Source of the DNA: Tenuifilum thalassicum
Lineage (GTDB): Bacteria > Bacteroidota > Bacteroidia > Bacteroidales > Tenuifilaceae
Reading direction: 5' to 3'
Length of the DNA: 64,000 nt
NCBI RefSeq assembly: GCF_013265555.1
Contig: NZ_CP041345.1
Location: forward strand, 1,658,581 to 1,722,580
Part shown: one piece after another, positions 55,312 through 64,000 of the stretch
How the letters are laid out: each line of letters begins with the position of its first letter
How positions within the stretch are numbered: position 1 is the first letter of the stretch
Notes under the pieces: model-generated
The model's input: only the letters and a program-made list of their open reading frames with translations
Told to the model about the DNA's origin: nothing
The model's database searches: none
Made by a program: the position numbers and the translations under genes

Positions 55312-55423
55312 AAAATTAAACCAATTGCTTATCACCCAGCACCTTCTACGGCACGGCTTGCCAACCCGAGCGAAGTCGAGGCATCTCTTCTTGAAGAATC
55401 TGATGAAGTTAAAGGAAGTTAGA

Positions 55424-55492
55424 GGAATGAATGAATCTGAATGAATCGGAATGAATCGGAAATATTCGGAAGGAGTCGGAAGAACCGTGTTT
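55424..55492 (+). repeat. Decamer tract GAATGAATCG
   Basis: About six degenerate 10-base units run in tandem: GAATGAATCT, GAATGAATCG twice, then GAAATATTCG and GAAGGAGTCG. It directly follows a GAAGTTAAAG/GAAGTTAGAG decamer pair. The same pair of tracts stands in reverse complement at 45720-45790. Confidence 0.65.
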
Positions 55493-55790
55493 GGTATTTA
55501 GTTTTAGGTGTTTAGAAAAGTGTGCTCAGAATCAACCAATTAATAAAGAATGAAAATTCAGCCCCGTAGGGGCGAACTATAGGTAGAATTAACAAGAATT
55601 AACAAGTCCCATAGAGTTTTGCGATGCACGGAAGAACCACACCAAAGAGCGAATATGAAACGTTGCATCGCAATTTCAAGTAATGCCCCCAAGAACCAGT
55701 TTGTCATGCCGTGCGTAGTCGAGGCAACTCTTCTTGAAGAATTTGACGAAGTTAAAGGAAGTTAGATGAAGTTAGAGGAATTTAAAAGAA
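55485..55790 (+). repeat. Composite intergenic repeat, copy 2 (plus orientation)
   Basis: The modules are collinear with copy 1: AACCGTGTTTGG, GCCCC-GTA-GGGGC, TTTGCGATGCACG, AAGAACCAGT, TCATGCCG, CTCTTCTT, then AAGTTAAAGG decamers. A further pair GCGATGCA/TGCATCGC makes a stem of 8 bases around about 40 bases. Confidence 0.65.
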
Positions 55791-56144: not shown

Positions 56145-57074
56145 TTATTCCTTTATTTTTCTCAATGTAACATATATCATTGGATTACCATGGTGTACTG
56201 CGTGCCTTTTAGGATAGTTTTCCCAATATATAGTATCTCTTCGCCAACCATTCTTATCATAAAACCATTTATAAAATTTATTTGTTTCCTCCCATGCGTC
56301 GCCAATTTTAATACTGTTAATATCTTCTCGAAGGGTCAATGTACCAAGTTTCTTAGCTTGGTAGTCGGGCTTGTAGTTTACAGGTAGTTCAAGTACAACA
56401 AACAATCCATTACTAGGCATGGGTAATTTATATTCATAAAGGTTAATTTTTAAGTAATCATCACCTTTATAACCTTTATTTGCCTCAAATAAAATTGGTC
56501 CTAATAATCTTAAAGAATCGTTGGGTTTCAAAAATTCCTTTTCACCAGCATAAAGCGAAAAAAGAAATGGAGATGCAGGGTTGCCTTTATTTACAATATA
56601 TATGCATAATTGATTTATAACAAACTGCTCATTAGGTTTTTTATTTGGAATATATAAACCGAGTTTTCCATATATAGAATTATAGTAATCTTTTCTTGGC
56701 TTTTTTTTATAAATTCCCATCTTTTCGAATTTAATCCTTTTGGGGGATTTAATTGTAACTCCTTCAATACTAAATTGTTTGCTCTTAAGTGGGATACTAA
56801 TAATATCTTGAGGTAACATCGACAAATCAATTTCTTTATCAATGTATGACATATGCTTTAATAAAACCTTTGAATGGTATAATTTTTTTGTTGGCTTAAA
56901 TAAGCCATTGGCATCTGTCTGTCCTACAACCGCACCATTCAACAATACAAAGCAATCTGAAATTGGTTCAGTAGTTGCTTCATCAAATACTCTAAGGATT
57001 AACTCCTTGGGGGTATTTACATAAATTGGCGATTGCCAAAGAAATGCTAAAAGAATTAAATGCAATAAATACAT
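56145..57074 (-). CDS. Secreted carboxypeptidase-regulatory-like protein of the peptide module
   Basis: About 309 residues. A hydrophobic start (MYLLHLILLAFLWQ) acts as a signal peptide or anchor; then a CarboxypepD_reg-like beta domain (about 25-110: LILRVFDEATTEPISDCFVL and GQTDANGLFKP) and an unrecognised C-terminal part of about 200 residues with ENYPKRHAVHHGNPMIYVTL at the end. The frame is open from 57122; ATG 57074 gives the better signal peptide. It lies about 60 bases after a GG-leader peptide gene and is probably in its operon. Function unknown. Confidence 0.6.
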   Translation of the reverse strand: MYLLHLILLAFLWQSPIYVNTPKELILRVFDEATTEPISDCFVLLNGAVVGQTDANGLFKPTKKLYHSKVLLKHMSYIDKEIDLSMLPQDIISIPLKSKQFSIEGVTIKSPKRIKFEKMGIYKKKPRKDYYNSIYGKLGLYIPNKKPNEQFVINQLCIYIVNKGNPASPFLFSLYAGEKEFLKPNDSLRLLGPILFEANKGYKGDDYLKINLYEYKLPMPSNGLFVVLELPVNYKPDYQAKKLGTLTLREDINSIKIGDAWEETNKFYKWFYDKNGWRRDTIYWENYPKRHAVHHGNPMIYVTLRKIKE

Positions 57075-57132: not shown

Positions 57133-57333
57133 TTAATCTAATCTTGTTTCAGTGGTCTCATAAAAACCAAACCATGAACATCTTTGTTTCACAGTATGAG
57201 AGACCCCATTTTCATCGACAAATTCACCTGCATAATGCCAATGATTGAATCTCAAAATACGATCTCCACCTTTAAAATTGTTCAAATCATTTTCTAGCAT
57301 AGACATTGACTCAAATTTATCTATTTTCTTCAT
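57133..57333 (-). CDS. GG-leader peptide precursor A2
   Basis: A 66-residue precursor: MKKIDKFESMSMLENDLNNFKGG (leader, cleavage after Gly23 inferred) and a core of 43 residues rich in aromatic amino acids (FNHWHY, CSWFGFY) with one Cys. The leader pattern (charged start, spaced hydrophobics, GG) matches the Bacteroidales GG natural-product-precursor type. Such leaders are normally cut by a C39 peptidase ABC transporter, none of which is in the window. It follows the A1 gene by 12 bases. Confidence 0.65.
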   Translation of the reverse strand: MKKIDKFESMSMLENDLNNFKGGDRILRFNHWHYAGEFVDENGVSHTVKQRCSWFGFYETTETRLD

Positions 57334-57345
57334 ATCGTTGTGTTG

Positions 57346-57546
57346 TTAATCGTAAAGTTCTTTATATTTATCTGTGGGGTTACCCCAAATATTATAATAT
57401 TGATACCTGATGATACTTGTGCCTTCGCTTGCACCTTCAAGTTTCACATATCCAACTTTTATAACACGCCAACCCCATCCTCCTTCAATTGATTTCATTT
57501 CATCGGAAGTAAGTTGACAAAACTTCTTATCATCTAAACTTTCCAT
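57346..57546 (-). CDS. GG-leader peptide precursor A1
   Basis: A 66-residue precursor. Leader MESLDDKKFCQLTSDEMKSIEGG ends in GG at 22-23; the core is about 43 residues and starts WGWRVIKVGYVKL, with several Tyr and Trp and no Cys. The sequence EMKSIEGG is a textbook GG leader ending. The gene is 164 bases after the HTH gene of block A. The final product and its modification are unknown. Confidence 0.65.
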   Translation of the reverse strand: MESLDDKKFCQLTSDEMKSIEGGWGWRVIKVGYVKLEGASEGTSIIRYQYYNIWGNPTDKYKELYD

Positions 57547-57656
57547 ATTATTATATTTTTCCTACTCATAGGGAACACCCCAGGCTTTTCAGTTACCGCC
57601 CACCACTCCATCCTGCGCAGTTTATTTTAATGGATTGGTTAATACAAAGTAAACCG

Positions 57657-57685
57657 ACAGGTCGGCAACCACACTTTCGACCTGT
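57657..57685 (-). promoter_or_regulatory. Conserved hairpin after the HTH gene (block A)
   Basis: ACAGGTCG (57657-57664) pairs with CGACCTGT (57678-57685). In block B the equivalent stem is CAGGTCGG/CCGACCTG; base changes at the edges keep pairing. It lies between the HTH stop and the GG peptide gene and could regulate the peptide message. No T-tract follows. Confidence 0.5.
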
Positions 57686-57710
57686 AAATATTTTATGTTT
57701 TATAGCATAT

Positions 57711-57989
57711 TTATGGGGGGGGTAAGTTTGGCGTGTCGGTATTTTGTGTTTTGGATTCGTCCTCAATAAAACAAAGAACTAGCCTGCCGGGGCGGGAGAA
57801 CTTCCAAGTACGGAGCGTAGGATTGTACTCCAAGGGTACTTTTATGCTCTCGAGCTGTTCAAAATAGTTGCGCACGGTGCGTTCGCTCACTCCAAGCTTA
57901 TCGGCAATTTCGGGTGCAGTTCCTGCGTTGCCGCTTCGTAAAAGAAAATCGAGATACTCGATAAGTCGTTTTGATTCAATAATATTCAT
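57711..57989 (-). CDS. Small HTH regulator (DeoR/HTH_11-like), copy A
   Basis: A 92-residue protein with a winged-helix N-terminus of the HTH_11/DeoR type: ESKRLIEYLDFLLRSGNAGT then APEIADKLGVSERTVRNYFEQ (recognition helix). The C-terminal part, VPLEYNPTLRTWKFSRPGRL, probably forms the wing; no sensor domain is attached. It is 164 bases upstream of the first GG peptide gene and is the likely regulator of that module. Copy B at 59885 is nearly identical over its first 80 residues. Confidence 0.75.
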   Translation of the reverse strand: MNIIESKRLIEYLDFLLRSGNAGTAPEIADKLGVSERTVRNYFEQLESIKVPLEYNPTLRTWKFSRPGRLVLCFIEDESKTQNTDTPNLPPP

Positions 57990-58060
57990 TTCAACTAAAC
58001 ATAAAATTAATGAGAGTGGTCTGGCCCCCTATAAATCGAAGTTTTGTATAGATAGTTAAA

Positions 58061-58068
58061 CAAATATA
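58061..58068 (-). promoter_or_regulatory. -7 box upstream of HTH copy A
   Basis: TATATTTG on the minus strand, a perfect -7 match, 72 bases ahead of the ATG. The base triplet at the position of the -33 element in copy B (TTG) is CTT here, so the -33 element appears lost. Confidence 0.4.
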
Positions 58069-58108
58069 TTATATTTCGTTTACAATTAAAGTAGCAAAGG
58101 GCAACATT

Positions 58109-58191
58109 AATTCAACAAGCAAATGCGACACAATTAAAGAACTCTGTTTTTGGAGTACTAAAATGCAAAGTCTTCCTTGGTTTTCTGTTTA
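58109..58191 (-). mobile_element. IS30 left-end remnant (block A)
   Basis: 83 bases identical or nearly so to the IS30 end at 44296-44378, encoding only the last codons of the transposase (TLHFSTPKTEFFNCVAFAC). The break point, followed by TCCGTCTTTGCC, is the same in block B, so truncation preceded duplication. Confidence 0.85.
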
Positions 58192-58225
58192 TCCGTCTTT
58201 GCCGGAAAATTCTGAAATCTGACCC

Positions 58226-58675
58226 GTCCTAAATAATGTCTACATAAAAATGTAGATATGAATAAGAATAATTACGTAACAAAACGCTACAGCGAGAGTT
58301 TTAAATTAAAAATTTTAAGCGAACTTAGCACGGGTAAGTACTCAAAGCATGATCTTACCCAGCAGTACGGAATTTATGTTCCAACTATTAACCGATGGAT
58401 TAAGAAATACAACAGGGTAGACCTTATGAACAAGCGAGTTTTAGTGCAAGAGCCAGATGAGGTCAGCAAGCTGCAGGCCTTGCAGAAGGAGATGGAGCCT
58501 CTCAAGAAGCTTCTGCTTAAGATGAACCTTGAGTTCCAGGTAAAGAACTGCTTTCGCATCAGCATGACACAGGAAAACCATTGCTACAAGAATGCTGTGG
58601 CCGAAAGGGTAAACGGTATCCTTAAGAATGAGTGTGTTGCCTAATTTTTTTTACCCTTTAGACTTATTTTAGGAC
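58226..58675 (+). mobile_element. IS3 family remnant with internal deletion
   Basis: Ends GTCCTAAATAATGTCT (58226-58241) and AGACTTATTTTAGGAC (58660-58675) are inverted repeats. The enclosed frame joins an OrfA N-terminus to an OrfB C-terminus, with most of OrfB missing. At about 450 bases it is well short of a complete IS3 element (about 1.2-1.5 kb). Confidence 0.8.
58258..58644 (+). pseudogene. IS3 transposase OrfA-OrfB deletion fusion
   Basis: A 128-residue frame. Residues 1-100 are an IS3 OrfA with the HTH NNYVTKRYSESFKLKILSEL and GIYVPTINRWIKKYN and a coiled coil. Residues about 100-128, FRISMTQENHCYKNAVAERV and onward, are from the end of the OrfB DDE domain (the Glu region). The catalytic Asp residues are missing, so it cannot transpose by itself, though it keeps the end-binding domain. 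Confidence 0.85.
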
Positions 58676-58690
58676 TAGACACTCCATAGT

Positions 58691-59502
58691 TTAAAAAATC
58701 TTAAACATAGGAATTGATACGCTTTGTAAAACGATTTGAAGTTTGGAATTATCTATATTAGTATATTCGAACCTAACAAAACCAAACCTAGGATTAAAAT
58801 AACTCGTAAGTTTTGTTTTCCCCAACACACTTACAGCCTCACTATCAACAATAAAGCAATCCAAATTTCCAAAATTAGTTTTAATTGTCTTTTTCCCAAC
58901 TATTTTGTACTTATACTTAAATTCAACGATTCCTTTCCATTGCTTCCAGCGTTTATCGCCCCACCCTTCACTTATTTTAAGTTTCCAATTCCAAGAATGG
59001 CCTATTTCTAAAGGATACTTAATATACGGGTATGGGTTTAATTCTAAAATTTGAAACAAATACTCCCTCGGAGGATGAAACCATAAATTTTACAATTCTC
59101 AATCAGCCCTGTCATGGCATCATTTAGTATTATCGGGATATCTATACAATATCCCGGTTTGATAAAAACAGGGTCGTTGAAATTCATATTTTCTTTAGAT
59201 ATTTCAAGTTGAAACCCTTTAACCAGATTTTTTTTACATGTATTTACATCGATAAAATCCCAAGAACCATCTTTATTAACATAGAAGAATAACTCTTTAC
59301 CATTTTTATCAAAGAATTTATAGCTAAATGTTAAAACACTTCCGCGTTTATAAATATTATTACGCTCTAGTTCAGGTTTTTCAATTATATTCCCATACAA
59401 ATACCCATCAAGTAAAAGCAAATTATTTTCATTTGTTATTACTTGAGCCGCAATATAAAGACGTAAAAACAAAAAGGTTACAAACAGTGTTAGTTTATTC
59501 AT
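58691..59502 (-). pseudogene. Frameshifted secreted protein of the second peptide module
   Basis: Two frames make one protein. The first (59502-59044) starts with a signal peptide MNKLTLFVTFLFLRLYIAAQ and runs to about residue 145; the second frame continues from about 59095 with WFHPPREYLFQILELNPYPY and ends at 58691. The switch is a one-base shift near 59085-59095, close to AAAATTT. The second part cannot start by itself with a good ATG. It is either a mutated gene or a sequencing error. The function is unknown; the position matches the secreted protein of module A. Confidence 0.65.
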
Positions 59503-59590
59503 AATTAAACTTTTAGTACTTATTATCACATTAAAAAAAACGAGCCAACTGCTTTGAAGATGGTGTGTTTATTTAATAAAACATATTATG

Positions 59591-59788
59591 CTACATCCAA
59601 CCTTCACAAATTTCAATTTTAGAATTATCATCAGTAATCACAATATGGTCTCCATTTTGGTATACATATGTATTCCTATATTTTGCTGTCAAACCAATTT
59701 GACCTCCAACTACTTTCGACATCTGTTCCTTGTCAATTTGTTCATTCTTGAACATATTGTCTTCTAAACTCTCAAATTTTGAATTCAT
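59591..59788 (-). CDS. GG-leader peptide precursor B1
   Basis: A 65-residue precursor. The leader has KFESLEDNMF, then IDKEQMSKVVGG with GG at residues 28-29, followed by a 36-residue core QIGLTAKYRNTYVYQNGDH and a CEGWM end with one Cys. The MSKVVGG ending is the clearest GG leader in the window. The frame is open back to 59857, but the leader starts at ATG 59788. It is 97 bases after the HTH gene of block B. Confidence 0.72.
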   Translation of the reverse strand: MNSKFESLEDNMFKNEQIDKEQMSKVVGGQIGLTAKYRNTYVYQNGDHIVITDDNSKIEICEGWM

Positions 59789-59884
59789 TTTATTAATTGT
59801 TAAGACCCTACTCATAGGGAGCACCCCAGGCCTTTCGGTTACCGCCCACCAATCCATCCTGCGCAGTTTATTTTAATGGATTGG

Positions 59885-60238
59885 TTAATACAAAGTAAAC
59901 CGGCAGGTCGGCAACCACACTTCCGACCTGTAAATAATTTTATGTTTTATAGCATATTTATGGGGGGGGTGAAAGTTTGGCGTGTCGGTATTTTGGGTGT
60001 TGGATTCGTCCTCAATAAAGCATAGAACTAGCCTGCCGGGGCGGGAGAACTTCCAAGTACGGTACGTAGGATTGTACTCCACGGGTACTTTTATGTTCTC
60101 GAGCTGTTCAAAATAGCTTCGCACGGTGCGTTCGCTCACTCCAAGCTTATCGGCAATTTCGGGTGCAGTTCCTGCGTTGCCGCGTCGTAAAAGAAAATCG
60201 AGATACTCGATAAGTCGTTTTGATTCAATAATATTCAT
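59885..60238 (-). CDS. Small HTH regulator (DeoR/HTH_11-like), copy B
   Basis: A 117-residue version of copy A. The HTH (APEIADKLGVSERTVRSYFEQ) and the wing region are kept with few substitutions (for example VPVEYNPTYRTWKF). After DTPN the frame differs because two extra bases stand next to the run of eight G, giving a 34-residue unrelated tail instead of a stop. The DNA-binding part should be intact. It probably controls peptide B1. Confidence 0.7.
   Translation of the reverse strand: MNIIESKRLIEYLDFLLRRGNAGTAPEIADKLGVSERTVRSYFEQLENIKVPVEYNPTYRTWKFSRPGRLVLCFIEDESNTQNTDTPNFHPPHKYAIKHKIIYRSEVWLPTCRFTLY
59904..59930 (-). promoter_or_regulatory. Conserved hairpin after the HTH gene (block B)
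   Basis: CAGGTCGG (59904-59911) pairs with CCGACCTG (59923-59930). Compared with block A one inner pair changed from G-T to G-C. Confidence 0.5.
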
Positions 60239-60309
60239 TTCAACTAAACATAAAATTAATGAGAGTGGTCTGGCCCCCTATAAATCGAAGTTTTGTATAG
60301 ATAGTTAAA

Positions 60310-60340
60310 CAAATATATTACATTTCGTTTACACATGCAA
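60310..60340 (-). promoter_or_regulatory. Candidate promoter of HTH copy B
   Basis: TTG (60340-60338), a 20-base gap and TATATTTG (60317-60310), a perfect -7 box. Both elements are present here, while copy A keeps only the -7 box. Confidence 0.55.
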
Positions 60341-60357
60341 TAGTAAAGGACAACATA

Positions 60358-60440
60358 AATTCAACAAGCAAATGCGACACAATTAAAGAACTCTGTTTTT
60401 GGAGTACTAAAATGCAAAGTCTTCCTTGGTTTTCTGTTTA
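60358..60440 (-). mobile_element. IS30 left-end remnant (block B)
   Basis: The same 83-base fragment as at 58109, with the same break point (here followed by TCCGTCTTCGCC). Confidence 0.85.
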
Positions 60441-60473
60441 TCCGTCTTCGCCAGAAAATTCTGAAAACTTTAA

Positions 60474-60528
60474 CCTTTATCCTTTATCCTTTATCCTTTA
60501 TCCTTTATCCCTTATCCCTTATCCTTCC
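60474..60528 (-). repeat. CCTTTAT heptamer array
   Basis: Seven 7-base units: CCTTTAT five times, then CCCTTAT twice. It is the reverse complement of the GGATAAA tracts at 33184 and 55198. It lies between block B and the histidine kinase gene. Confidence 0.8.
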
Positions 60529-60703
60529 TTAGTTTAAAATTTGTTCATAAAAACTTTTCGTTTTGCTTGAATTTCAAAACAGTAAACCAATAAATTTGTT
60601 TTAAAAAAGAACAACAAGGTTTTGCTTAAACTAATATTACAATCTTGCATCAAAGAATAATAAATCGATTTTCTCAAATTCACAAGGCATCAAGGCGATA
60701 ACC

Positions 60704-63700
60704 ATGAGCAGCAGTAAAGAGTACCAGTCGCTAAAGGATAAATACCAAGCATTAGAACAAGAGTATCAGAAGCTCCAAGATAGGTATAATCAGCTTTTAA
60801 AAGACAAATTTGCAGAGGCAACCCACGATTCAATTTTCAGGGAGGTGGTTGAGTCATCCCCGATCGGCCTAATTCTGGCCAACCAAGATGGTATAATTAC
60901 CTATTCAAATAAGATTGCACCTCAACTTTTAGGGAAAGAATACGGAGAGAGTCTTATTGGTCAAGATATCAATAGTTTGATTTCTACAGACATAAGAACA
61001 GGTGAAAAGTTTGATTTTGAACAGGTAAAAGAGCAAAACCTATTTAAAACCACCCAAAAATTTGCTACCCCGGAAAATGAATCTATTGTTGAAATTGCAA
61101 TTCGCTCCATCAGCCCCAACCTAAAAGTATGTTTCCTTAAAAATATTACAGAGTCATATAAGACCGAGAGTGAGCTATTCCAGAGTGAAGAGAAATTTCG
61201 TTTAGCCTTTAAGCATAGCCCTGATGCTGTAAATATTAATCGAATAGATGGACTTTATGTAGACATAAATGATGGTTTTACTCAGCTAACCGGGTACACT
61301 CGCGACGATGTAATTGGTAAGCTATCGTCGGAGATTGGAATTTGGCAAATTCCTGCCGACCGTGAAAAGCTGGTTGATGAGCTTAAGCAGAAGGGATTTG
61401 TTAGAAACCTTGAATCCCAGTTTCTGTGCAAAGATGGTTCCATAAAAATAGGATTAATGTCAGCGGCAATTATTAATATTAACGGCATTCCTCATATTCT
61501 TTCAATCACTCGCGATATTACGGAAATTAAAGCTGCAGAATACCAGCTAAAGAAAAGCGAATCACGTTTTAGAACCATGATTGAGCAATCGGCCGAAGGT
61601 ATAACATTTACCAACGAGGCCGGGATTGTTGTCACATGGAATCGTTGCATGGAAGAAATTACCGGAATTTCTGCTCACGAAGTTCTGGGGCAATACATTT
61701 GGGATGTACAATTCCGTGTAGAAAACAAAACCGATAAAAATTCCGAAGAGTACATAAAGCTCAAAACAAACCTTTTACACGCCCTTAGAACGGGAACCCT
61801 CTCCTATGCAAAAAATCTGATGGAACGTATATTCACCGATTCTAATGGAAACACAAAAATTATACAGGGTTCGGTTTTCCCGATAAAAACCGGTAAGGGA
61901 TATATACTTGCTTCCATTGCACGTGACATTACCGAGAAAAAGAAAACGGAAGAAAAGATTAGGAAATCCGAGGCAAATCTTAAAGCACTAATTGACAACC
62001 GGGATGACCACATATGGTCGCTTGACAGGAACTACCGCTATATTGCCTTTAATAAAGCTTGGGCCGAGATGTTCAAGTTGTACTATAAACAGGAACTCAA
62101 ACAGGGAATGAATGCATTAGATTTCCTTGAAGGGAGCGATAAAGAATTTTGGATTGAAAAGTGTGAGAGAGCCTTTAAAGGTGAAAAGGTAAAGTTCACA
62201 AGAGCATATAAGCTGTGGGATGGAACCCACTACTATCAGGTATCGTTGAATCCTATAGCTGTTGAAAATTCAATCACCGGAGTATCAATAATAAGTGTCG
62301 ATATAACAGAGCAAGTTACAAGCACCCAGCGCTATAAAACCCTGTTTGAACATGCCCCTGTGCCACTTTGGGAAGAGGATTTTTCTGATGTTAAAAAGCT
62401 CCTTTCCTCACTCAAAGATGAGGGTGTTGATGATTTTGAAACCTATCTTGAACAACATCCCGAGGTAGTAAACAGGTGTGTCGAAATGGTCAAAATTCTG
62501 GACATCAACGATAGTGTTCTCATTCTACACGAGGCGGAAACAAAGGAGGAAATACTTGAAAGTTTAAATAAGATTTTCAACTGCGACTCTCTGAAAGCAT
62601 TTAAGAACGAGTTACTTGCAATAGCTAACAATAAAACCGAATCGTTCTTTGAGGCAAAAGTTAAAACGCTAAAGGGCAATGAGCGTTACATTATTTTGCA
62701 TTGGAACGTAGTACCCGGTTACGAGGAAACCCTTGAGCGGGTTTATATTTCCACGCTCGATATCACCCAAATGAAAAAATCAGAGGAAGCCATTAGAGAG
62801 AGCGAAAACAGGTATCGTACCCTCTTCGAACAATCGTCGGATGCTATTTTTCTGGTTGATCTGGATAGTAAAGTGATAGACTTTAATCCTCGTAGCGTTG
62901 AAATTCTTGGATATTCCGCTAATGAGCTATTAGGGATGAACCTATCAAGCATAGTCCATCCCGATGATTTGGCTGCAAAAGATCACGCCAGAGCTATTAA
63001 AGATTTAAGTGAGGGAAAAACAATTTATGCAGAGTATAGGGTTAGGAAAAAGGATGGAACATATATCCCAATAGAACTTAGTGTCAAACAAATTGATAAA
63101 AACCGTTTTCTAAACATTGCACGCGATATTTCGGAACGAAAAAAGGTTGAGGAAGAGATTAAAAGCTATAACAGAAGGTTAGTAGATATCCTTGAAAACA
63201 TGTCCGACGCATTTGTTGCACTTGACAGGAACTGGTGCTACACCTATATGAACGAAAAGGCAGCAAAAATATTTAACCGGGATGCCAAAGAAATGATTGG
63301 GAAGCATATATGGACCGAATTTCCCGAAGGCGTTGGGCAACCCTTTCACCTGAACTACGAAAAAGCCATGAATGAGAAGGTATTCATTAAAATGGAAGAG
63401 TACTATCCCCCTTACGATAAATGGTTTGAAAACAGAATTAATCCAACCGACGATGGTATTGCTATCTTCTTTTCAGATATAACTGACCGTAAAAAGGCAG
63501 AACAGGAAATACTAAAGCTAAACACCGAACTTGAAAAGCGTGTTTTTGAACGTACTATTGAGCTGCAGAACGCCAATCAGGAGCTGGAAGAGTTTGCCTA
63601 CTCCATATCGCACGACCTGAAAGCACCGCTTAGGTCGATAAGAGGTTTTTCCGAAATCATTTCGAACCGTTACCGTTCGGTTCTTGACGAGGAAGGACAG

Positions 63701-64000
63701 AAATATTTTAACTACATTCTGGAATCGAGCAACCATATGGCCACTCTTATCGACGACCTGCTTAAATTTGCGCGTCTGGCAAAGAAAAGAACAAGCAATG
63801 AGCTGGTGGACCTGAACAACTTGCTACAAACAGTAATGCACGATTTAAAAGTTGATATTGACAAATCACAGGCTACAATTAAAATTCAACAACTCCCCAT
63901 TGTTAAGGGCGACAAAACCCTACTGGTACAAATATTCTCAAACCTGATTTCTAATGCCATTACCTATACCAAAAAAGGAACTTATCCAGAAATTCAACTA
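60704..64000 (+). CDS. Multi-PAS sensor histidine kinase (3' end outside window)
   Basis: The visible 1099 codons contain a coiled coil (about 5-40) and six PAS or PAS-like domains, starting near residues 47, 160, 285, 426, 700 and 825, with typical openings such as RLAFKHSPDAVNINRIDG and RYRTLFEQSSDAIFLVDLD. Residues about 545-690 form an extra PAS-like module with a helical insert. A HisKA domain follows with FAYSISHDLKAPLRSI (phospho-His about 970) and the start of the ATPase domain (NLISNA box). No membrane helix is seen, so it probably senses inside the cell. The frame is open to the last base. Signal and partner regulator unknown. Confidence 0.92.
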   Translation, partial: MSSSKEYQSLKDKYQALEQEYQKLQDRYNQLLKDKFAEATHDSIFREVVESSPIGLILANQDGIITYSNKIAPQLLGKEYGESLIGQDINSLISTDIRTGEKFDFEQVKEQNLFKTTQKFATPENESIVEIAIRSISPNLKVCFLKNITESYKTESELFQSEEKFRLAFKHSPDAVNINRIDGLYVDINDGFTQLTGYTRDDVIGKLSSEIGIWQIPADREKLVDELKQKGFVRNLESQFLCKDGSIKIGLMSAAIININGIPHILSITRDITEIKAAEYQLKKSESRFRTMIEQSAEGITFTNEAGIVVTWNRCMEEITGISAHEVLGQYIWDVQFRVENKTDKNSEEYIKLKTNLLHALRTGTLSYAKNLMERIFTDSNGNTKIIQGSVFPIKTGKGYILASIARDITEKKKTEEKIRKSEANLKALIDNRDDHIWSLDRNYRYIAFNKAWAEMFKLYYKQELKQGMNALDFLEGSDKEFWIEKCERAFKGEKVKFTRAYKLWDGTHYYQVSLNPIAVENSITGVSIISVDITEQVTSTQRYKTLFEHAPVPLWEEDFSDVKKLLSSLKDEGVDDFETYLEQHPEVVNRCVEMVKILDINDSVLILHEAETKEEILESLNKIFNCDSLKAFKNELLAIANNKTESFFEAKVKTLKGNERYIILHWNVVPGYEETLERVYISTLDITQMKKSEEAIRESENRYRTLFEQSSDAIFLVDLDSKVIDFNPRSVEILGYSANELLGMNLSSIVHPDDLAAKDHARAIKDLSEGKTIYAEYRVRKKDGTYIPIELSVKQIDKNRFLNIARDISERKKVEEEIKSYNRRLVDILENMSDAFVALDRNWCYTYMNEKAAKIFNRDAKEMIGKHIWTEFPEGVGQPFHLNYEKAMNEKVFIKMEEYYPPYDKWFENRINPTDDGIAIFFSDITDRKKAEQEILKLNTELEKRVFERTIELQNANQELEEFAYSISHDLKAPLRSIRGFSEIISNRYRSVLDEEGQKYFNYILESSNHMATLIDDLLKFARLAKKRTSNELVDLNNLLQTVMHDLKVDIDKSQATIKIQQLPIVKGDKTLLVQIFSNLISNAITYTKKGTYPEIQL

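Follow-up and report, generated by a model that had tools for sequence, protein, structure and literature searches.

The window analysed here – a stretch of 64,000 nucleotides (nt), positions 1658581–1722580 of the single-contig, 3.2 Mb genome of Tenuifilum thalassicum, which is 98.6% complete – holds two units, both on the minus strand, in which a gene for a small helix–turn–helix (HTH) regulator stands before genes for peptides with double-glycine (GG) leaders. Unit A runs, in order, from the HTH gene through a hairpin, a promoter-like box and a leader to the genes for the peptides A2 and A1 and for secreted protein A. Unit B has the same head, followed by a single peptide gene, B1, and by a secreted protein split over two frames. 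An initial annotation of this DNA had proposed two units of HTH gene, hairpin, GG peptide or peptides and secreted protein, and every one of these elements was found, on the minus strand; it had also called the regulatory blocks nearly identical, as indeed they are.

The duplicated head

The two copies of the regulatory block form a direct repeat, with 631 identical positions and 3 gaps over an alignment of 663 columns – a likeness far beyond chance – and their homology stops at the conserved GAGTAGG of the leader (Table 1). Because the block also takes in an 84-bp remnant of the end of an IS30 insertion sequence (IS), the likeness of the two heads reflects a fairly recent segmental duplication and not two independent designs. 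Elsewhere in the genome the same 84-bp end recurs 8 times, and the IS30 transposase model gives 280.9 bits (cut-off 80) for one full copy of the element. The element is multicopy in this genome (L003–L010), and its end adjoins many different genes. The idea that the whole cassette came from a mobile element was rejected, the 84-bp repeat being an IS30 end remnant with copies elsewhere and no transposase or recombinase having been seen within the repeated unit.

The regulator appears to consist of a single winged-HTH domain. Both copies score over the cut-off of the HTH_11 family (PF08279), and an AlphaFold2 model built from eight sequences predicts three helices followed by three strands (H-H-H-E-E-E; mean pLDDT 65.1). 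Among the 50 matches listed by Foldseek against the Protein Data Bank (PDB), winged-helix regulators predominate, none with E ≤ 0.001, and there are weak matches to NiaR, BirA and DtxR-type proteins. The window HTH differs from HTH_11 regulators in that no further domain is seen and in that it is the head gene of peptide loci. With dN/dS, the ratio of amino acid-changing to silent substitution rates, at 0.07–0.28 between genomes, the gene is under constraint in general; its product may bind and control the adjacent peptide promoter.

Downstream of the hairpin, the leader has a predicted fold comprising the helices P1 (CCAATCCAT/ATGGATTGG in copy B), P2 (GGGC/GCC[U/C]) and P3 together with the conserved GAGUAGG; a further element, P0, may be promoter sequence, not a helix. 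When the window alone was compared with Rfam, three matches at chance level were returned, one of which – to DUF805b RNA – became meaningful later: copy A reaches 14.3 bits against a gathering threshold of 35.6, and copy B is not listed at E ≤ 5. A model built from 6 close sequences (R1) finds 26 places in 14 of the 27 genomes of the family, the T. thalassicum genome included. Among 18 of these loci, four pass the DUF805b threshold (L066, L067, L072 and L073), two fall just under it (L074 and L078) and two score lower (L079 and L060); the other ten, the window copies included, give no DUF805b match at E ≤ 1. Since R1 bridges to loci that pass the Rfam threshold, the window leader can be regarded as a divergent DUF805b relative, probably with a hairpin inserted in its linker. 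It shares with DUF805b RNA (RF02914) and DUF805 RNA (RF03081), both of clan CL00115, the core GGCGG-N-GAAAAGCC followed by GAGUAGG shortly before a start codon, and differs from DUF805b RNA in its score below threshold, in the extra hairpin P3 in the linker and in a long P1 upstream. The DUF805 motif was reportedly described by Weinberg and co-workers in 2017.

Across related elements, linker lengths are bimodal (3–9 vs 15–17 nt), and the first ATG follows GAGTAG by 16–24 nt in 47 of 60. The T. thalassicum genome has two further leader cores without an HTH gene (L094:4799-4836 and L095:4627-4655), each of which precedes a gene for a small secreted-looking protein and then genes that read as GLPGLI-like and large outer-membrane-like. 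In two other genomes (G107 and G210; loci L135, L138, L209 and L210), tandem GG-leader paralogues have DUF805b-like cores directly ahead of at least two of them, as if each peptide gene had its own leader.

Elsewhere, too, hairpins and promoter-like boxes accompany the leader. An inverted-repeat scan of 20 places, 19 of them with a result, found 10 repeats that end 47–59 nt ahead of the core and have arms of 6–16 bp; 8 others lie at a distance of at least 70 nt from the core and one is trivial. A hairpin before the core is thus common without being universal, and is perhaps a terminator. The sequence TAnnTTTG is the −7 box of Bacteroidetes promoters; an exact copy lies at most 110 nt upstream of the leader core in 19 of 60 related elements, where 7% would be expected.

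Precursors, their relatives and the search for maturases

The pattern [hydrophobic]xx[hydrophobic]xGG is directly visible in A1, A2 and B1, and the GG leader model TIGR01847 (cut-off 15.7) is passed by A2 at 16.1 bits and missed by B1 at 12.0, with no match for A1. Within the family, A2 has matches in three of 27 genomes: its own, G022 and G019. In both of these relatives (loci L083 in G022 and L084 in G019), and in a genome of another family (L154 in G105), an A2-like gene, an A1-like gene, a gene for a secreted protein, an ATP-grasp gene and a SPASM gene follow one another in this order. The ATP-grasp proteins of L083, L084 and L154 score 262.4, 231.5 and 258.3 bits with TIGR04192 (cut-off 230), and their SPASM proteins 291.3, 201.8 and 278.7 bits with TIGR04193 (cut-off 175); the leader core stands ahead of the peptides in L083 and L154. 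Of the secreted relatives of protein A at these three loci, two give weak CarbopepD_reg_2 scores, below cut-off; protein A itself scores far below cut-off with a longer start and has no match with its ATG start. The relative of secreted protein B, a 271-residue protein at L045 in genome G009, likewise adjoins SPASM and ATP-grasp genes, both over cut-off.

These relatives refine what had been proposed for the products. The suggestion that the peptides resemble precursors of ribosomally synthesised and post-translationally modified peptides (RiPPs) is supported for A1 and A2 by their orthologues, which lie beside ATP-grasp and SPASM genes; for B1 the support comes from its GG leader and its setting. 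The peptides had been called unrelated in their cores, which does not quite apply to A1 and A2: these and their orthologues share, by eye, a weak C-terminal G-x(n)-T-x(n)-D pattern, and the conserved Thr and Asp/Glu near the C-terminus would be compatible with the rings of graspetides. The two secreted proteins are unrelated to each other, as had been stated, and secreted protein B turned out to be one gene broken over two frames.

The initial annotation had noted no maturation enzyme or C39 transporter nearby, and this extends to the two maturase models genome-wide. In the T. thalassicum genome, TIGR04192 has no match at E ≤ 0.01 and TIGR04193 none at E ≤ 0.001, the latter being positive in 9 of the 27 genomes of the family; within the window, no remnants of the maturase or exporter queries were found at E ≤ 0.01. 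The genome has a third HTH gene, diverged (37% identity) and also ahead of a GG peptide (L049:4221-8797; G000:C1, about 1539200-1543800). Behind it lies a radical-SAM frame of 154 residues (PF04055, 41.8 bits) which ends at an IS1380 transposase gene, so the maturation pathway at this locus also looks broken.

Table 1. Features of the two units in the window, with positions counted from its first letter
Feature	Position	Strand	Basis
Duplicated block, copy A (regulator, hairpin, promoter-like box, leader RNA, IS30 remnant)	57561..58220	-	663-column alignment, 95% identity with copy B
Duplicated block, copy B	59807..60469	-	Alignment with copy A
HTH regulator A, 92 residues, predicted single winged-HTH domain	57711..57989	-	PF08279 (HTH_11) 35.7 bits, cut-off 25; AlphaFold2 model
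HTH regulator B, 117 residues	59885..60238	-	PF08279 32.1 bits, cut-off 25; 91% identity with A in the stretch common to both
Terminator-like hairpin A, 8-bp arms	57657..57685	-	Inverted-repeat scan and sequence
Hairpin B, CAGGTCGG/CCGACCTG	59904..59930	-	Sequence; the inverted-repeat scan returned nothing for copy B
Promoter-like box TTTACTTTG, copy A, one base short of TAnnTTTG	57645..57653	-	Sequence
Promoter-like box TTTACTTTG, copy B	59891..59899	-	Sequence
Predicted leader RNA A (P0, P1, P2, P3, GAGUAGG), relative of DUF805b RNA	57559..57648	-	Model R1 and fold
Predicted leader RNA B	59805..59894	-	Model R1 and fold
GG-leader peptide A2, 66 residues	57346..57546	-	TIGR01847 over cut-off; relatives in L083, L084 and L154
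GG-leader peptide A1, 66 residues	57133..57333	-	Relatives in L083, L084 and L154
Secreted protein A, 309 residues from ATG	56145..57074	-	27–32% identity to proteins beside ATP-grasp/SPASM genes
GG-leader peptide B1, 65 residues	59591..59788	-	Listed open reading frame starts upstream at 59857; GG model below cut-off
Secreted protein B, N-terminal part of broken gene	59044..59502	-	66% identity to positions 1–139 of the 271-residue protein of L045
Secreted protein B, C-terminal part, other frame	58691..59059	-	77% identity to positions 150–271 of the same protein
IS30 end remnant, 84 bp, copy A	58109..58192	-	Repeat comparison; IS30 transposase model on a full copy
IS30 end remnant, 84 bp, copy B	60358..60441	-	Position derived from the block alignment
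IS3-family transposase fragment between the units	58258..58644	+	NF033516 E 5.3e-14, below cut-off; PF01527 31.8 bits, cut-off 24.1

Elsewhere in the window, short direct repeats occur at 60468–60530 (CTTTATC units) and 55401–55790 (GAAGTTA-type units), and on the plus strand, from 60704 to 64000, one frame looks on reading like a sensor protein with several PAS domains (multi-PAS) and runs towards the window's end.

The head and its company across the order

At E ≤ 1e-4, homologues of the HTH protein occur in 21 of 99 genomes, that of T. thalassicum included, and when a profile of 13 HTH sequences is run against 393 genomes of the order, 53 of them have matches, at 89 places in total. From 79 of these that were analysed, 3 with less than 500 nt downstream were left out, leaving 76 – paralogues and related genomes among them, some with less than 6 kb of available sequence. 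They were compared with 120 random windows, drawn on both strands from 20 stretches of 15 genomes and not matched place by place. A strict GG-leader frame lies at most 1.5 kb downstream of 24 of the 76 HTH homologues vs 5 of the 120 random windows (Fisher 3.5e-7). When tblastn homologues of RiPP enzyme or C39 ABC queries are counted on the same strand within 6 kb, the figures are 29 of 76 and 1 of 120 (Fisher 4.7e-13), where three enzyme matches (two in G001, one in G208) involve queries from those same loci and where, as the C39 ABC query holds an ordinary ABC domain, its weak matches (61–64 bits in three, 146–238 in several) may be other ABC transporters. Either kind of neighbour is found at 41 HTH homologues vs 6 random windows, a count that rises to 44 vs 6 if the leader core is admitted as well; of 100 control windows taken upstream at these loci, 9 have GG frames and 2 the leader core. 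The initial annotation had named as a refutation that the HTH protein be found mostly without GG peptides, and on this the counts give a mixed answer. A scan of genome contigs led nowhere: of the 32 loci it returned, just 5 belong to Bacteroidota.

Within the family the association is closer. The 26 leader places found by R1 have an HTH gene upstream in 15 cases and a strict GG peptide next in 16 (2 have no frame in reach), and where HTH and leader occur together, 12 of the 15 places precede a strict GG peptide. The coupling of the leader to the HTH gene and to peptides is a feature of the family. The stretch from HTH gene to peptide gene is 79–98% identical over 92–172 nt between genomes with different peptides.

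The reuse of one regulatory head before different exported peptides, read from the window alone in the initial annotation, is seen in relatives too, where what follows can be a cluster with its enzymes. In G009 and G020, the genes behind the HTH gene encode, in turn, a GG peptide, a secreted protein, an ATP-grasp protein, a small protein and a SPASM protein; another head in G009 precedes three GG peptides and a radical-SAM protein; the head in G006 precedes a GG peptide and a C39 ABC exporter; and in G001 there follow a small secreted protein, a GLPGLI protein (over cut-off), a radical-SAM protein and a pseudo-rSAM protein. At L044, the ATP-grasp protein reaches 252 bits with TIGR04192 and the SPASM protein 250.5 bits with TIGR04193, both over cut-off; L048 has the same order, with its SPASM gene over cut-off, and the C39 ABC protein of L047 scores 111.3 bits with Peptidase_C39 (cut-off 22). 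The radical-SAM (L045 and L046) and pseudo-rSAM proteins stay below the NCBIfam cut-offs, their best scores being 165.5 of 525 (TIGR04463), 291.8 of 300 (TIGR04148) and 126.1 of 250 (TIGR04150).

Genome G009 (L044 and L045) carries a whole array of HTH heads, one of them truncated, before different peptides. Its unit b is a patchwork: the HTH gene matches paralogue d at 100% over its initial 120 nt, over the next 120 bases it is 68–69% identical to the window, and the region behind the HTH gene shows 92–93% identity to the window against 75% to d; a local match of 118–120 nt reaches 97–98%. Because unit b combines d-like and window-like parts in this way, the mosaic points to recombination inside the head, and heads may have been exchanged between loci by homologous recombination. 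An inter-gene inverted repeat was also considered as an operator matched to the recognition helix; this was rejected, as units b and d differ in their repeat arms despite being identical over those first 120 nt of the HTH gene.

Probable orphaned precursors behind a putative portable head

We consider it probable that the window holds a duplicated regulatory head before orphaned precursors of a known kind of cluster, the grasp-with-spasm maturases of which were not found. The precursors look orphaned because neither maturase model has a match, because the single C39 exporter is distant and because one secreted partner is broken. The portable head would comprise a single-domain winged-HTH gene, a terminator-like hairpin, a promoter and a 5′ leader of the DUF805b kind, whose end lies 12–16 nt ahead of the start codon of a gene for an exported GG-leader peptide; as an RNA, the leader may control expression of this first peptide gene. 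Among relatives, heads of this kind precede RiPP clusters with precursors, ATP-grasp plus SPASM or radical-SAM maturases and a C39 exporter. In T. thalassicum, the head was duplicated as a segment, presumably once an IS30 remnant lay upstream of it, and the duplicates now precede different precursors.

Several observations weigh against this reading. As to the precursors, A1, A2, B1 and secreted protein A are intact frames, the frame break in secreted protein B could be an assembly error, and the orphan status depends on the models of two families and on an assembly that is 98.6% complete, so an unrelated maturase could act. As to the head, no HTH gene was seen upstream of the A-type operons of relatives, be it in G022 (with about 470 nt of contig left), in G019 (L084; the contig ends soon) or in the list of open reading frames of G105 (L154); therefore, the tie between A peptides and the HTH gene is shown for the window only. 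The leader core pattern was not found in L084, and it is missing ahead of two intact clusters, the second unit of L044 and L048. The box TTTACTTTG of the window lacks the exact TAnnTTTG spacing by one base, and the 3 silent and 6 changing substitutions between HTH copies A and B in 75 codons (dN/dS 0.59) are too few to judge whether selection is relaxed.

The pairing of the leader is backed by covariation, with some caveats. On the six close leader sequences alone, it does not rise above shuffles. Over 26 matches from 25 of the 26 R1 loci (L064 left out), in an alignment fitted to the structure model, pairs form in 93.1% of cells vs 77.4% in shuffles and 33.4–50.4% in slid controls, and 18 of 24 pairs show two-sided changes, with none of 500 shuffles reaching the observed values; an unfitted stem test is weaker and gives modest support, at least 7 Watson–Crick pairs being found in 15 of 57 elements where 6.55 are expected.

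Instead of remnants, the units might be active, stand-alone signalling or bacteriocin cassettes, each of them working, with peptides that are cleaved and exported in trans by the single C39 exporter and remain unmodified. Such an exporter does exist: the sole C39 match of the genome (G000:C1:225237-225635) belongs to an open frame scoring 112.5 bits with Peptidase_C39 (L157:1123-3663; G000:C1, about 223120-225660); moreover, all three leaders and cores are open frames and the heads are well conserved. However, the exporter lies about 1.4 Mb away and has its own small GG peptide frame alongside, the secreted partner in unit B is broken, and the relatives of A1 and A2 adjoin ATP-grasp and SPASM maturases, so that we think this explanation unlikely. 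The frame beside the exporter encodes 73 residues, is rich in Gly and Ala and resembles a class II bacteriocin precursor, with no Pfam match; genes that read as LytTR-like lie near the exporter.

It is similarly doubtful that the order uses regulator and leader as generic parts for expression, their linkage to peptides being incidental, even though some of the survey speaks for it: 35 of the 76 HTH homologues have neither a GG peptide nor a RiPP/export gene in reach, and outside the family the leader keeps other company. A second model, R2, finds 47 places in 32 of the 393 genomes, and at the 26 examined, all outside the family, there is an HTH gene in 1 and a strict GG peptide in 3; two more (L135 and L138) have GG peptides missed by the strict pattern, and 13 of the 26 precede proteins of more than 130 residues, many with N-termini that read as signal-like. 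Since the leader there mostly precedes other genes – by reading, those for outer-membrane proteins, lipoproteins and others, mostly without an HTH gene – the RNA is not peptide-specific. Against a merely incidental linkage stand the strong enrichment over random windows and the predominance of strict GG peptides behind HTH gene and leader within the family.

Finally, the hairpin and leader region acting simply as a recombination site at which different peptide genes are inserted, with no regulatory role for the RNA, is very improbable: the end of the A/B homology at GAGTAGG and the mosaic second head of G009 would fit it, but no recombinase was seen inside the repeated unit, the same core stands at a similar distance from the start codon before many non-peptide genes, as expected of a leader RNA, and ordinary homologous recombination explains the mosaic.

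The closest known counterparts of the window are the grasp-with-spasm clusters (TIGR04192 and TIGR04193), which share the GG leaders and in which relatives of A1, A2 and both secreted proteins adjoin the maturases, the difference being that neither maturase model matches in the T. thalassicum genome. The ATP-grasp/SPASM loci of Bacteroidetes, described as 'branch 5' graspetides, have very diverse precursors, auxiliary proteins and a response regulator of the OmpR family, and precursor content is reported to vary between related loci; a small HTH protein or a leader RNA goes unmentioned in the available part of that paper (PMC8939145). GG-leader peptides are also known from Bacteroidales, where one cluster, BGC3, has an HTH gene; these share the phylum with our peptides, and the available part of the report mentions no leader RNA and gives 0 matches for 'riboswitch' (PMC10352776). 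As far as the accessible text goes, the likeness to the GG-leader peptides of Bacteroidales and to bacteroidetocins lies in the GG leaders and the common phylum (PMC6671954).

The claim that the window represents an undescribed system of this composition could not be upheld, as it looks like the orphaned remnants of a known kind of cluster, not a complete system. No paper linking this HTH protein or this RNA with RiPP clusters was found in the literature searched, as far as its accessible text shows, and neither DUF805 nor DUF805b occurs as a word in the papers listed by the searches on this point. More tentatively, the portable head – a one-domain HTH gene, an insulating hairpin, a promoter and a leader of the DUF805 clan – may be passed between peptide loci by recombination, which would let Bacteroidales lineages swap the exported peptide and keep one regulatory input; because the same core precedes many exported proteins, the leader could be a shared sensor of an envelope or export signal. 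We regard this as possible but rather speculative.

The window itself would thus offer orphaned precursors rather than a complete new system, and the part worth following is the wider link between HTH gene, leader and cluster. It would join three things that, in the accessible part of the literature searched, stand unconnected: a small HTH_11 family, an Rfam RNA whose name comes from a neighbouring gene alone, and clusters for RiPPs of several chemistries within a single order. If this link is true, the HTH gene and the leader would serve as markers for peptide clusters with overlooked short precursor genes, and the RNA would gain testable targets.

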